Shown one piece after another: positions 450 through 4,071 of a stretch of DNA of 40,086 bases. The stretch is from assembly GCF_900609055.1 (NCBI RefSeq), contig NZ_UXAW01000082.1:1-40086 (forward strand), given 5' to 3'. Origin of the DNA: Pseudogemmobacter humi (GTDB lineage Bacteria > Pseudomonadota > Alphaproteobacteria > Rhodobacterales > Rhodobacteraceae). The position numbers and the translations under genes were made by a program. The notes under the pieces were generated by a model, which saw nothing but the letters and a program-made list of their open reading frames with translations, was not told the origin of the DNA and ran no database searches. The stretch's first letter is position 1; every line of letters begins with the position of its first letter.

Positions 450-797
450 ATGTCTGATCTTGCGAGACAGAATGTGTCTGGTCTGACAGGAGGGGAGTCA
501 GACCTGACCAGACGGATCATAACCATGCACCGGCGCGACGTGACGGTGGCATGGGCTTTTGTCCTTGGTTTGTGGTTCTCGATCATTTTCGTGGCAATCG
601 GCACCTGGTCGCTGGCGCCCACCGGCGGCGCGCGCACCGCGCTGCTGATCGGGGGCGCGGTTGTGCTCATCTTCAACACCGCCGCCATTCTGGCCATGCT
701 GCGGCATTACCGCGAGGATCGCGACTTCATGTATGGGCTGGACATCCAGTTCCTCGATGAGGCCCGCGAGGCGAAGAAAGGACGCAAACATGGCTAA
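450..797 (+). CDS. Small two-TM membrane protein, first gene of the APC permease operon
   Basis: 115 aa. I chose the ATG at 450 because an AAGGGAGG ribosome site lies 7 nt upstream; the upstream in-frame extension is low-complexity and not protein-like. A polar N-terminal segment of about 27 residues ends in HRRD. Two hydrophobic helices follow, at about residues 31-53 and 62-84, joined by a short SLAPTGGAR turn. A charged C-terminal tail (RHYREDRD to KKGRKHG) probably lies in the cytoplasm. I do not recognise the family. It overlaps the next gene by 8 nt, so the two are translationally coupled. By analogy with small membrane partners of SSS symporters (YjcH with ActP, DUF4212, DUF3311), it may be an accessory subunit of the permease encoded at 1353; that role is inference. 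Confidence 0.75.
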   Translation: MSDLARQNVSGLTGGESDLTRRIITMHRRDVTVAWAFVLGLWFSIIFVAIGTWSLAPTGGARTALLIGGAVVLIFNTAAILAMLRHYREDRDFMYGLDIQFLDEAREAKKGRKHG

Positions 798-1167
798 ATA
801 CGTCGCCCCCGTGCAGGGCAAGGTCGGCCAGATCATCGACGTGATCGTGCTTCTGATCATGGCGATCGGCGCGCTCTACATCCCGCTGTGGATGGGGCTT
901 GCCGGATCCTCGAAGGATCCGCAGCCGGTCGAGAATCCGACCTGGGAGAGCCTCGGGCAGAATCCGGCCATGGTCGAGCAATGGGAAAAGCTCGGCTATT
1001 CCGATGCGGCCTCGGCGGCCGAACTGATCACCGCCCGGTTCGACTACAGCTTCTCGATCACGGCGCTGATCGTGATGATCGTGGTCATCGTGGGCTATTA
1101 TGCGATCCTGCTGCGGTTTTCCGAAAAGGAATACCGCGAAGTGATCGCCGAGAAATTCGGCGAGTGA
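790..1167 (+). CDS. Small two-TM membrane protein with a periplasmic-type loop
   Basis: 125 aa, starting at ATG 790 with an AAAGGA site just upstream, inside the end of the previous gene. The first helix covers about residues 13-38 (IIDVIVLLIMAIGALYIPLW). A hydrophilic loop of about 45 residues follows, rich in E, Q, P and W (NPTWESLGQNPAMVEQWEKLGY). The second helix covers about 87-106 (SFSITALIVMIVVIVGYYAI), and a charged tail (SEKEYREVIAEKFGE) ends the protein. The topology suggests the loop is outside and both ends are in the cytoplasm. The family is not recognised. It sits between two other small membrane proteins directly ahead of an APC permease, so a subunit or assembly role is likely but unproven. 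Confidence 0.75.
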   Translation: MAKYVAPVQGKVGQIIDVIVLLIMAIGALYIPLWMGLAGSSKDPQPVENPTWESLGQNPAMVEQWEKLGYSDAASAAELITARFDYSFSITALIVMIVVIVGYYAILLRFSEKEYREVIAEKFGE

Positions 1168-1174
1168 GGCCAAT

Positions 1175-1351
1175 ATGGATCTGTGGAATTATCTTGAATA
1201 CGCGGCCTGGGCGGCATCGTTCCTGTTCGGCCTGTTCATCGTGATCGACTGGATCAGAACCGACAGCACCTACAGCGAGGACTTCCTGACCTCCTCGCGC
1301 GAGGGCGAGCTGGAAGCTCTGACCGAAGAACAACATCATCACCGGGGGTAA
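1175..1351 (+). CDS. 58-aa single-TM microprotein directly upstream of the permease
   Basis: ATG at 1175 with a GTGAGG site 5 nt upstream; the stop at 1349-1351 lies 1 nt before the permease ATG. It begins MDLWNYLEYAAWAASFLF, continues GLFIVIDWIRTDSTYSEDF and ends in the acidic segment EGELEALTEEQHHHRG. Residues about 8-27 form one membrane helix and the remaining 30 residues are hydrophilic and acidic. The gene lies 7 nt after the previous stop. The size, the helix and the position are typical of small regulatory or stabilising subunits of transporters. The family is not recognised. Its tight fit between flanking genes and its ribosome site make it very likely a real gene. Confidence 0.75.
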   Translation: MDLWNYLEYAAWAASFLFGLFIVIDWIRTDSTYSEDFLTSSREGELEALTEEQHHHRG

Positions 1352-1352
1352 C

Positions 1353-2750
1353 ATGGCGCAGGCGCAAACAACCGAACACGTCGGCCTTGCCCGTGTGCTT
1401 GGCCCCGCCCATATCTGGGCGCTCGGGGTGGGCATCGTGCTCGTCGGCGAATATATGGGCTGGAACTTCTCGGTCGGCAAGGGCGGCGCCTATGCGGCGC
1501 TGATGGCCTGCTGGTTCGCGGGCATTCTTTACACCTGCGTGGCCATGATCGATTCCGAGGTGACATCGACCGTCGCCGCGGCGGGCGGGCAATACACCCA
1601 GGCCAAGCATATCGTCGGGCCGCTGATGGCCTTCAACGTCGGGCTCTATCTGGTCTTCGCCTATACGATGCTTGAGGCCGCCAACGCGATCACCTTCGGC
1701 TTCCTCATCGACACCGTGGCGACGATGAGCGGGCACGAGGCCGGCAGCCTCGATCAGCGGCCGTTCATCATCCTGGCGATCATGTTCCTCGCCTGGCTGA
1801 ACTATCGCGGCGTGCTGGCGACGCTGACCTTCAACCTGGTCATCACCGCCATCGCCTTCACCGCGGTGATCGTGCTGTTCCTTTCCACCTCGGGGATCTT
1901 CACCGACAGCCCGCTGCGCCATACCGAACTGATGAGCGGCCCGGCGGCCATGCCTTACGGCTGGCTCGGCGTGCTGGCGGCGATGCATTTCGGCCTGTGG
2001 TATTACCTCGGGATCGAGGGCACCACCCAGGCCGCCGAAGAGGTGCGCAGCCCGGCGCGGTCGCTGCCCTTCGGCACGCTCGCGGGGGTCATGACGCTGG
2101 CCATCGCCGCGACGCTGACCTGGTATGTCTGCTCGGGGCTGATGCCCTGGGAATACCTGGGTCAGGCCGGGGTGCCGCTGTTCGACGCGGCGCGGCTGTC
2201 GGGATCGACCTTCCTGATGGTCTTCCTGGGCATCGGCACGATGTTCGCGACGCTGGCCTCGGCCAACGGCTGCATCAACGACGCCAGCCGCGCCTGGTTC
2301 GCCATGGGCCGCGACCGCTATCTGCCGGGCTGGTTCGGTGCGGTGCATCCGCGCTACCGCACCCCGTACCGGGCGATCATCTTCCTCGTGCCGATCGCGC
2401 TGATCTTCGCGCTTGGTGCGCCGATCGACCAGGTGATCACCTTCTCGATCCTGTCGGGCCTGCTGGAATACACCTTCATGCCGCTGAACATCATCCTGTT
2501 CCGCCGCAAATGGCCGCTGGAATCGATCAACCGCGGTTATGAGCACCCGTTCCACCCGCTGCCGGCCTATGTGCTGCTCGGGCTGTGCGGGATGACCTTC
2601 TTCGCGGTGTTCCTTGGCTACGGCACCCAGCTGGTGGCGATGATCGCCTTCTACATCGTCGTCTCGCTGTGGTTCCACTTCTGGCGCTACCGTTTCGTCA
2701 ACCGGGGTGCCCAGTTCACCATGCCCTGGCCGAAACCGCGGGGCTATTGA
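1353..2750 (+). CDS. APC-superfamily permease, ethanolamine-permease type
   Basis: 465 aa with about 12 hydrophobic helices, so an inner-membrane secondary transporter. The N-terminal part (GVGIVLVGEYMGWNFSVGKG, then AAAGGQYTQAKHIVGP) matches the pattern of the ethanolamine/amino-acid permease branch of the APC superfamily, where TM1 carries an unwound GxxxGWNFG-like stretch and TM3 follows an AGG-Y motif. The cytoplasmic motif after TM6 (EEVRSPARSLPFG) is also typical of APC carriers. The substrate cannot be read from sequence; a small amine or amino acid is likely. The gene is preceded by three small membrane proteins and overlaps the next gene by one base. Such extra subunits are not standard for APC carriers, which usually work alone or with a single-TM heavy chain in eukaryotes. 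Confidence 0.88.
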   Translation: MAQAQTTEHVGLARVLGPAHIWALGVGIVLVGEYMGWNFSVGKGGAYAALMACWFAGILYTCVAMIDSEVTSTVAAAGGQYTQAKHIVGPLMAFNVGLYLVFAYTMLEAANAITFGFLIDTVATMSGHEAGSLDQRPFIILAIMFLAWLNYRGVLATLTFNLVITAIAFTAVIVLFLSTSGIFTDSPLRHTELMSGPAAMPYGWLGVLAAMHFGLWYYLGIEGTTQAAEEVRSPARSLPFGTLAGVMTLAIAATLTWYVCSGLMPWEYLGQAGVPLFDAARLSGSTFLMVFLGIGTMFATLASANGCINDASRAWFAMGRDRYLPGWFGAVHPRYRTPYRAIIFLVPIALIFALGAPIDQVITFSILSGLLEYTFMPLNIILFRRKWPLESINRGYEHPFHPLPAYVLLGLCGMTFFAVFLGYGTQLVAMIAFYIVVSLWFHFWRYRFVNRGAQFTMPWPKPRGY

Positions 2751-3430
2751 TGGAAACCGGACTTTTCGTCCTGATCCTTGGCGGGGGGCTGGCAATGCTG
2801 GCCCTCCGTCTTCACCATTCGGCGGCTGAGCGCAAAGCGGCGCGCGAGGGTTATTTCGACCTTGTGGCGCAGGGGATGTCGCGGCTGCGCCGTGCCATCG
2901 CGCCGACGGGGTTCGCGCGGGTGTCCGGCGATGTGGCGGGGATGGAGGTCGATCTTCAGGCTGTCCCCGACACGCTGACCTGGCGCAAGCTGCCGGCGCT
3001 GTGGCTCCTGGTCACGGTGCCGGGCGCGCTGCCCCTGCGCCAGCGGATCGACCTGATGATCCGTCCGCGCGGGGTCGAGCCGTTTTCCGGCTTTGCCGAT
3101 CTGCCGCATCAGACCTGGCTGCCGAAGGATTTCCCCGAGGATGCCGCGCTCCGCAGCGAAGAGCCGCTGTCGCCGGAAGAGGGCGCGCTTCTGCGCCGCC
3201 ATCTGGCGATCTTCGACGATCCGCGGGTCAAGGAGCTGATTCTCGGCCCGACCGGGCTGCGCATCACCTGGCTGGCGGACGAGGCCGAACGCGGCCGCTA
3301 TCTGATCTTCCGCGAGGCCGAGATGGGCCGCATCCCGCTGGCCCCCGAGGATCTGGCGCCGCTGCTGGACAGGCTGGCCGCCTTGCGCGAGGATATCCTG
3401 CAAGACGACCAGGCAAGGAAATGCGCATGA
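2750..3430 (+). CDS. Conserved-looking membrane-anchored protein of the permease operon
   Basis: 226 aa. The ATG at 2750 shares its A with the TGA of the permease gene, so the two are translationally coupled. An N-terminal helix (about residues 4-22, FVLILGGGLAMLALRLHHS) would anchor it to the membrane. The rest is soluble and has a semi-hydrophobic stretch at about 80-100 (WRKLPALWLLVTVPGALPLR), followed by an acidic helical C-terminal half. I see no catalytic or binding motif and do not recognise the family. The coupling suggests it acts with the permease, for example as a cytoplasmic regulatory or scaffold subunit; that is inference. Confidence 0.7.
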   Translation: METGLFVLILGGGLAMLALRLHHSAAERKAAREGYFDLVAQGMSRLRRAIAPTGFARVSGDVAGMEVDLQAVPDTLTWRKLPALWLLVTVPGALPLRQRIDLMIRPRGVEPFSGFADLPHQTWLPKDFPEDAALRSEEPLSPEEGALLRRHLAIFDDPRVKELILGPTGLRITWLADEAERGRYLIFREAEMGRIPLAPEDLAPLLDRLAALREDILQDDQARKCA

Positions 3431-3711
3431 AACCGCCCCCCAACCCGTATCTGGTGCTGGCCTCGGCCATCGTCCTGCCCGGCTCGGGCCAGGTCTGGAA
3501 CGGCGAGCCGTTGCGTGGGCTGATCTTCCTGTTCTTCCTGATTCTCCTGGGCGGCTTCACCCTGGTGACCGCCGCGCCCGACGTGTCGTTCCTCGGCCGC
3601 TATGCCGGAGGGTTCTTCGTCTGGGCGATGGCGATTTTCGATGCCTACAAGCGCGCCCGCATCCGCCAGGTGGTCTGGGAGCATGGCCGGGGCGAGGGGC
3701 AGCGCGGCTGA
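3427..3711 (+). CDS. Small two-TM protein, last gene of the permease operon
   Basis: 94 aa from the ATG at 3427, which overlaps the previous stop in an ATGA; an AAGGA site lies 8 nt upstream, so I prefer it to the ATG at 3421. It begins MKPPPNPYLVLASAIVLPGS. The segment LPGSGQVWNGEPLRGLIFLF resembles the G-x-G-Q-x-x-N-G-x-x-x-x-G hinge of TM2-domain-like small proteins, which pair two short helices around such a loop. Helices lie at about 29-48 and 57-75, and a basic tail ends the protein. The function is unknown. Its stop is 4 nt from that of the convergent DUF2218 gene, so transcripts from both sides meet here. Confidence 0.7.
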   Translation: MKPPPNPYLVLASAIVLPGSGQVWNGEPLRGLIFLFFLILLGGFTLVTAAPDVSFLGRYAGGFFVWAMAIFDAYKRARIRQVVWEHGRGEGQRG

Positions 3712-3715
3712 CGGA

Positions 3716-4006
3716 TCAGCCGTTCAGCTGCCAGGTGAAACCGCTGAACCCGTCGCGGAAGGCAAAGGTCACCAGGTGCTTGTCGACGATATAGCGGGCC
3801 TCGATGATGCCGCGGACATCCTCGGCCGAGACCGTCACGCTCAGCCCGGTCTCGTCTGCCGCCAGATCCATCGGGCCGGGGCCGAGCAGCGCACGGCCCC
3901 GGTGTTCGTCGAAGCTGACCTCGATCTTATGGGCGAAATGCTTGCAAAGCTGTTGCAGATATTTCGGGCCGTTTTCAGTGGCAAAGCGGGCGGAAGAGGT
4001 CAGCAT
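3716..4006 (-). CDS. DUF2218 family protein
   Basis: 96 aa, starting MLTSSARFATENGPKYLQQL. The pattern of a short Ala/Thr-rich start, K-Y-x-x-Q-L-C-K-H-F-x-H-K-I-E-V, a central GxxxMDL segment and a C-terminal strand ending GFTWQLNG is that of DUF2218, a family of about 90-100-residue cytoplasmic proteins of unknown role. In some genomes it is found near iron-uptake genes, but nothing here shows that link. I took the ATG at 4006 because a longer in-frame start would add residues that do not fit the family. Confidence 0.8.
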   Translation of the reverse strand: MLTSSARFATENGPKYLQQLCKHFAHKIEVSFDEHRGRALLGPGPMDLAADETGLSVTVSAEDVRGIIEARYIVDKHLVTFAFRDGFSGFTWQLNG

Positions 4007-4045
4007 GGCATAATCCCTGTGATATGGGCAGGAATTATGCGCTGG

Positions 4046-4071
4046 CCGCGCGGGGGGCAAGCCCCGCGCGG
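4046..4071 (-). terminator. GC-rich hairpin below the CxxC hypothetical gene
   Basis: Perfect 10-bp stem (4046-4055 with 4062-4071) and a 6-nt loop, just after the stop of the gene at 4080-4628 when read on the minus strand. No T-run follows on that strand, so termination is only a possibility. Confidence 0.35.

Follow-up and report, generated by a model that had tools for sequence, protein, structure and literature searches.

Why should one permease gene be flanked by five genes for small proteins that belong to no named family? The question is raised by a 40,086-nt stretch of contig NZ_UXAW01000082.1 of Pseudogemmobacter humi (hereafter the window, meaning this whole stretch), in which six genes at positions 450–3711 of the plus strand encode three small membrane proteins (g1, g2 and g3), a permease of the APC superfamily and two membrane-associated proteins (g5 and g6). 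These six genes, here called the cassette, are a real and tightly conserved unit. We propose, with a probability of roughly 0.55, that their products may act as one functional unit importing a small protonated amine, with methylammonium the likeliest candidate, for the N-methylglutamate pathway.

Six genes kept together around one permease

A permease scan of genome contigs returned 442 relatives, the best 80 of which were kept as loci. All six genes occurred in the same order and on one strand in 77 of these 80 loci, and the remaining three were cut by contig ends. Over all DNA examined, with the window and overlapping loci counted, there were 139 complete sets, each on one strand, and every incomplete set touched the end of the retrieved DNA. 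Removal of duplicates left 96 non-redundant sets, in which the median identity to the window was 0.84 for the permease, 0.72 for g1, 0.62 for g2, 0.67 for g3, 0.48 for g5 and 0.64 for g6. The same six genes were present in a second alphaproteobacterial order, where the permease was 64–69% identical, and in Paraburkholderia. In all six genes the third codon position was the most variable, above positions 1 and 2, in a comparison with 95 relatives; they are not chance open reading frames, because they are conserved as proteins.

The small genes kept exclusive company with this permease. We surveyed 72,556 plasmid records with limits of E ≤ 1e-60 for the permease, E ≤ 1e-3 for g2, E ≤ 1e-2 for g5, g1 and g6, and E ≤ 0.1 for g3, and compared the accession lists by eye. 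The permease matched 22 records, and g1, g2, g5 and g6 each matched the same 22 accessions. The g3 search matched 20; both missed records were from Paraburkholderia, in one of which g3 was found by profile. A permease search at E ≤ 1e-10 showed that 186 further plasmid records carry APC permeases of less than 60% identity, and among the 60 matches listed no permease had an identity between 31.1% and 68.1%. At the thresholds used, none of the small cassette genes was found in plasmids outside the 22, the 186 with distant APC permeases included. Profiles of the five partners likewise gave no match around four other permeases resembling ethanolamine permeases (Eat), three of them annotated as Eat and one Eat-like. 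When only g2 was searched for, across 292 genomes from the organism's order, there were 10 matches, including the genome of the window, with the permease adjacent in every case. The initial annotation had considered that the small genes might be found mostly away from APC permeases; the opposite held in 22 of 22 plasmids and in 10 of 10 g2 matches. The exclusive co-occurrence extends across orders, to a second class and to plasmids, and the five small proteins would be dedicated partners of this one permease.

The same evidence bears on the idea that co-transcription is all the six genes share and that the small proteins do unrelated work in the membrane. CbrX is an example, in passages of a preprint (PMC13022988), of a translationally coupled partner that is not required, which lends the idea some credit. 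Exclusive co-occurrence with one permease clade over such a range, and an unchanged gene order in all complete sets observed, speak against it and make it quite improbable. Neither this explanation nor the other alternatives weighed below are mutually exclusive.

The genes are packed closely in the window. The initial annotation had described three small membrane proteins of 115, 125 and 58 aa, with two, two and one helices, upstream of an APC permease, and the open reading frames and Kyte–Doolittle profiles agree with it. These are g1 (450–797, plus strand), preceded at its start at 450 by what by eye is a good Shine–Dalgarno sequence, AAGGGAGGG; g2 (790–1167, plus strand), whose two long helices are linked by a conserved loop some 50 aa long; and g3 (1175–1351, plus strand), which carries a conserved SSREGE motif. 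The permease (1353–2750, plus strand, 465 aa) is followed, again as described, by two membrane-associated proteins: g5 (2750–3430, plus strand, 226 aa), with one Kyte–Doolittle helix at its N-terminus, and g6 (3427–3711, plus strand, 94 aa), with at least one clear helix and an uncertain exact number. The tight spacing and overlaps noted earlier were also found throughout, the successive gaps from g1 to g6 being -8, +7, +1, -1 and -4 nt. A sigma-70 scan around the cassette gave no promoter and a terminator scan gave matches at chance level only; spacing is the basis on which we infer a shared transcript of the six genes.

Several records depart from the standard arrangement. On pSymB of Sinorhizobium meliloti Ak57 (L127:11803-13380), the g3 frame reads through without a stop into the permease, giving a product of 526 aa. 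We did not use this fusion as proof of contact, as it is a single case and the stop is kept in three other Sinorhizobium records. In another genome (G204), a shortened g6-like frame (L184:5191-5430, minus strand; profile E 2.4e-13) adjoins an XRE regulator and mgsABC-gmaS. No other cassette gene was found in that genome, and by eye the frame resembles g6 of G170, which belongs to the same genus; the frame seems to be what is left of a cassette since lost.

The ends of the cassette are bordered by genes of other kinds. By likeness to locus L128, positions 1–93 of the window (plus strand) hold the 3' end of a universal-stress-protein gene, about 360 bp upstream of g1. We rejected it as a cassette member, with a same-direction upstream copy in 2 of 76 sets (Paracoccus aminovorans, L011, and Paracoccus sp. 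MA, L128). Directly downstream and convergent lies a gene for a DUF2218 protein (3716–4060, minus strand), and a DUF2218-like frame, recognized by eye, was also near the cassette in L112 (4353–4652), beside ABC transport genes.

Genes of the N-methylglutamate pathway as neighbours

To place the cassette among its neighbours, we counted genes in the 57 loci spanning no less than 13 kb of DNA (about 6 kb on each side). Both gmaS and mgsA were present in 42 of these 57 loci and were the most often linked of those tallied among the 15 reference genes searched; any N-methylglutamate gene was found in 45. In one locus (L119), NCBIfam and Pfam assigned the neighbours to a type III glutamine synthetase (GmaS-like), three glutamate-synthase-like subunits, sarcosine-oxidase-like subunits and a trimethylamine monooxygenase. 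On plasmid pAMI6 of Paracoccus aminophilus, matched by gene order, the cassette directly adjoins the mgsABC-gmaS operon, a name given for that species in passages of PMC4543880. In S. meliloti Ak57, annotation and reference matches placed the cassette within a gene set for breaking trimethylamine down to methylamine (tmm, tdm, dmm, gmaS, mgsABC and mgd); next to a DUF1989 gene read as tdm stands another APC permease, separate from that of the cassette.

The association extended from neighbourhoods to whole genomes. With a GmaS-like call set at E ≤ 1e-120, GmaS was found in 93 of the order's 292 genomes, among them every one of the 10 cassette carriers, the window's included (hypergeometric 7.6e-6 by genome and 5.8e-4 by genus, with descent beyond the genus uncorrected). 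A second set of 50 genomes from the 80 loci, hand-chosen with mostly isolates first and several already in the 292-genome sample, had GmaS in 49. Action on a small amine is thus well supported by association. Our best guess for that amine is methylammonium, which of the candidates agrees best with the accompanying genes.

Two other markers of methylated-amine use did not help. Methylamine dehydrogenase was rejected as a partner pathway, no link being seen: PF02975 was present in 1 of 28 genomes, a sample that included 22 cassette carriers. Mgd was uninformative as a second marker, since MgdA-like proteins occurred in 14 of 14 genomes at 2–4 copies and were indistinguishable from sarcosine oxidase. 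In Pararhizobium qamdonense, a glutamine-synthetase-family gene with an annotation unlike glnT lies just upstream of the cassette (L130:9506-10858) and might point to another gamma-glutamylated amine.

A number of observations weigh against a conserved unit for methylamine import. No methylated-amine gene was within reach in 12 of the 57 long loci, and 83 of the 93 GmaS genomes of the order have no cassette; the statistics given above leave descent beyond the genus uncorrected. The cassette occurs with no GmaS match in Paracoccus sp. IB05 (L012, the same as G292) and in G704, which is about 100% complete, as well as in the incomplete genomes G709, G321 and G392. In the second order, 16 of 17 genomes have the permease and 15 have GmaS; that order cannot test the link because both are too common there. 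Among the scanned downstream neighbours of the cassette in the window, no methylated-amine gene was recognized, and mgsABC-gmaS of that genome lies on a separate 4.5-kb contig (G000:C54, L152). The permease has an in-frame stop in 2 of the 80 loci (L018 and L090; their sources are Paracoccus limosus and a metagenome bin), a sign that gene decay or errors of sequencing do occur. The 22 plasmids are not 22 independent cases, because they include nine from Aminobacter and three near-identical ones from Sinorhizobium, and the single-sequence E-value limits of that survey can miss distant relatives of the small genes.

An Amt-type transporter bears on the proposal from both sides: its frequency where the cassette is missing speaks for it, its presence together with the cassette in eight loci against it. 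Among 40 of the 83 cassette-free gmaS loci, all with mgsABC, an Amt-type transporter was present in 18, close to mgsA where elsewhere the cassette sits; it was also present together with the cassette in 8 of 65 cassette and gmaS loci (56 distinct permeases). This exchange is no more than a hint, because the compared stretches differ in size. It is suggestive of Amt and the cassette being alternatives for the same substrate. Both occur near mgsABC-gmaS, but the Amt-type transporter of Roseobacter methylamine clusters belongs to a protein family unrelated to the cassette permease and would be another possible route. An ammonium transporter in methylamine clusters is also noted in parts of PMC7574528.

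Side observations attach to both of these subjects. The related genomes G295, G298 and G303 carry two copies of mgsABC-gmaS, and the 4.5-kb contig of the window's genome may be a collapsed repeat. In 12 of the 40 cassette-free loci, the Amt-type transporter stands beside mgsA, and the gene after it encodes a conserved protein some 71 aa long, by eye with one helix (for example L185:13518-13733), which may be a further example of an amine transporter's small partner.

A literature search covering listings and some passages named no methylamine importer of bacteria that use the N-methylglutamate pathway. A hint in print, from the abstract of PMC5023235, is that homologues of amino-acid permeases are among the methylamine-responding genes of Methyloversatilis universalis.

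The permease and its relatives

The permease belongs to the APC superfamily by its matches to PF00324 and PF13520 (104.8 and 101 bits against cut-offs of 24.6 and 27; residues 31–444 and 25–435 of 465), with an E-value of 5.9e-30 for the Pfam AA_permease model. Its closest curated family is the ethanolamine permease TIGR00908, with a score of 186 bits that does not reach the cut-off of 381.75; two distant cassette permeases scored 169 and 193.4 bits. The likeness to Eat is one of sequence family, of 25–27% identity to three annotated Eat proteins and of a motif GE[YF]xGWxxG in the first transmembrane segment (TM1). Alignment showed that the segment GE[YF]xGWN, which reads GEYMGWN in the window, is common to the cassette permease and the Eat proteins and absent in TmoP. 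Among the three Eat proteins it varies, one having GQYAGWN and the other two GWS for GWN.

The glutamate of this segment in the cassette permease aligns to the GTG stretch of GkApcT. In amino-acid carriers this stretch is presumably what holds the carboxylate of the substrate. A glutamate near that site would therefore suit a short amine that has no carboxylate, and the permease may on these grounds be a carrier of short-chain amines.

This likeness also feeds another explanation, namely that the cassette moves a different amine (dimethylamine, trimethylamine or ethanolamine) or a product of the pathway, with GmaS linked to it only through the clustering of methylated-amine genes. Permeases encoded next to eutBC have the TM1 motif as well (two of the three Eat controls; the third lies beside an amine oxidase), ethanolamine permeases form the closest curated family, a TmoP-like gene is near in 16 of 95 non-redundant sets, and a few cassette genomes have no GmaS match. 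Against ethanolamine, the score is below half of the TIGR00908 cut-off, and the surroundings differ: the Eat surroundings lack the cassette genes and the cassette stretches lack EutBC, with no eutBC near the cassette in six annotated plasmid stretches, nor annotated in any of eight when two with little or no annotation are counted. The place of gmaS and mgsA as the most often linked of the tallied reference genes (42 of 57) further favours methylammonium over the other amines, so that we hold this alternative to be possible, if unlikely.

TmoP, the permease for trimethylamine N-oxide, was considered for the cassette permease and rejected. The initial suspicion was drawn from what Zhu et al. 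2014 are said to have described, and TmoP is likewise an APC permease within methylated-amine gene clusters. The cassette permease had no match to NF053774 at E ≤ 1, is 18% identical to TmoP, and stands apart from it as a separate gene. In a locus of Gemmobacter caeni (L013), NF053774 marks a true TmoP at 844.5 bits (cut-off 690) in another, neighbouring permease, and the cassette permease is therefore not TmoP.

Partner proteins and their possible roles

Small partners of secondary carriers are known in other settings. YjcH-ActP is an SSS carrier with a small subunit, and the DUF4212 and DUF3311 proteins are likewise small partners of SSS carriers. No Pfam match to the SSS small-subunit families DUF485, DUF4212 and DUF3311 was found in g1–g6 of the window, nor were these among the families found for alignment members of g1, g2, g5 and g6. 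The light chains of heteromeric SLC7–SLC3 carriers are distant relatives of the cassette permease, but none of the six cassette proteins matched an SLC3-type heavy chain with a large ectodomain in Pfam or NCBIfam.

Two nearer parallels involve a single partner each. GkApcT, the best solved relative of the permease (E 3.1e-21), is a bacterial APC carrier that was crystallized (5oqt) with the single-helix Escherichia coli protein MgtS on TM5, but in the passages of PMC5803215 that describe this, MgtS came from the E. coli expression strain and is not an operon partner. CbrX, according to parts of the preprint PMC13022988, is a small membrane protein whose gene lies upstream of, and is coupled to, that of a LeuT-fold carrier; it binds the SLC5 domain of CbrA, as seen by cryo-electron microscopy, and is dispensable for growth on histidine. 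CbrX–CbrA and the SSS carriers differ from the cassette in transporter family and in having one partner instead of five. The initial annotation had known of no described bacterial APC carrier with several small partners: five conserved partners are indeed unprecedented in our searches, and the statement needs correcting in view of the single partners of GkApcT and CbrA. A literature search of titles and abstract openings likewise gave no methylamine APC permease with small partners and no report of the cassette itself.

None of g1, g2, g3, g5 and g6 of the window had a Pfam or NCBIfam family above cut-off. We extended the Pfam scans to alignment members, the window included, for g1 (n = 13), g2 (n = 58), g5 (n = 61) and g6 (n = 13), and scanned the window protein only for g3. 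Members of g1, which have a conserved C-terminal motif NTAAI.AM.RHY...YGLDI..LDE, gave weak matches only, most often to FA_desaturase (5 of 13), and those of g2 gave weak matches with two unrelated families most frequent at 7 of 58 each. The g6 members weakly resemble DUF6677 (10 of 13) and DUF5683 (9 of 13) at E ≤ 0.1, and the 61 g5 members gave four chance-level matches with no family repeated at that threshold. The AlphaFold2 model of g2 shows two long helices and a structured loop (mean predicted local distance difference test, pLDDT, 81; predicted template-modelling score, pTM, 0.38), and a fold search with it against the PDB gave no match.

The model of g5 was more telling. AlphaFold2 predicted an N-terminal helix, a compact domain of mixed alpha-beta structure and a long C-terminal helix at a mean pLDDT of 94.3 and a pTM of 0.89. 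Its best Foldseek match among 350,542 PDB chains was chain 4 of 7tm3 (E 2.9e-4, probability 0.99), which is CCDC47, a eukaryotic membrane-protein biogenesis factor of the PAT complex; the TM-score was only 0.34 and the root-mean-square deviation 14.6 Å. The second match was chain 4 of 9i78 (E 0.026, 371 residues), an SND3 translocon structure in which CCDC47 is fitted over residues 76–447, in keeping with a chain of 371 residues (PMC12572126). Comparison of the g5 sequence with CCDC47 and the PDB found no link, and the CCDC47 model PF07946, run at E ≤ 10 on 20 cassette genomes, had no match at g5 loci and two weak matches elsewhere. Prokaryotes are without PAT components according to passages of PMC9630114. 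The relation of g5 to CCDC47 may be a likeness of fold and no more.

Because of this fold, an assembly role for g5 rivals that of a subunit. The small proteins would then be assembly or quality-control factors, with g5 acting on the folding carrier in a CCDC47-like manner and the finished carrier working alone. The confident g5 model with CCDC47 as its best PDB match fits such a role, as does a permease that is highly conserved (median identity 0.84) next to a g5 that is not (0.48). The low TM-score, the large deviation and the lack of a sequence link tell against it, as does the good conservation of g1, g2 and g3 (medians 0.72, 0.62 and 0.67), and we regard this alternative as rather unlikely.

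Under the proposal of a unit for methylammonium import, g1, g2, g3 and probably g6 would pack around the permease in the membrane, and g5 could help to assemble or regulate the permease through its CCDC47-like domain. The imported amine would be trapped by GmaS as gamma-glutamylmethylamide, which might be routed onward via MgsABC and Mgd. From gene content and models we infer the substrate, the direction of transport, the physical contact and the role of each partner; five constant partners and the company of methylamine genes together suggest that the cassette may be a many-part methylamine pump. A bolder version, which we consider doubtful, would make it the first multi-subunit prokaryotic APC carrier: six proteins that import methylammonium with high affinity and so fill the uptake gap of the N-methylglutamate pathway, with a bacterial relation of the CCDC47 fold acting as chaperone or gate for this one permease.

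The cassette offers a concrete candidate for the methylamine importer of bacteria with the N-methylglutamate pathway, and five nameless protein families would gain a function. If g5 is truly CCDC47-like, a fold so far tied to membrane-protein assembly in eukaryotes would enter a simple bacterial setting. If the partners are needed, multi-part secondary carriers would extend from SSS symporters and the human SLC7–SLC3 pairs to a bacterial APC amine permease.

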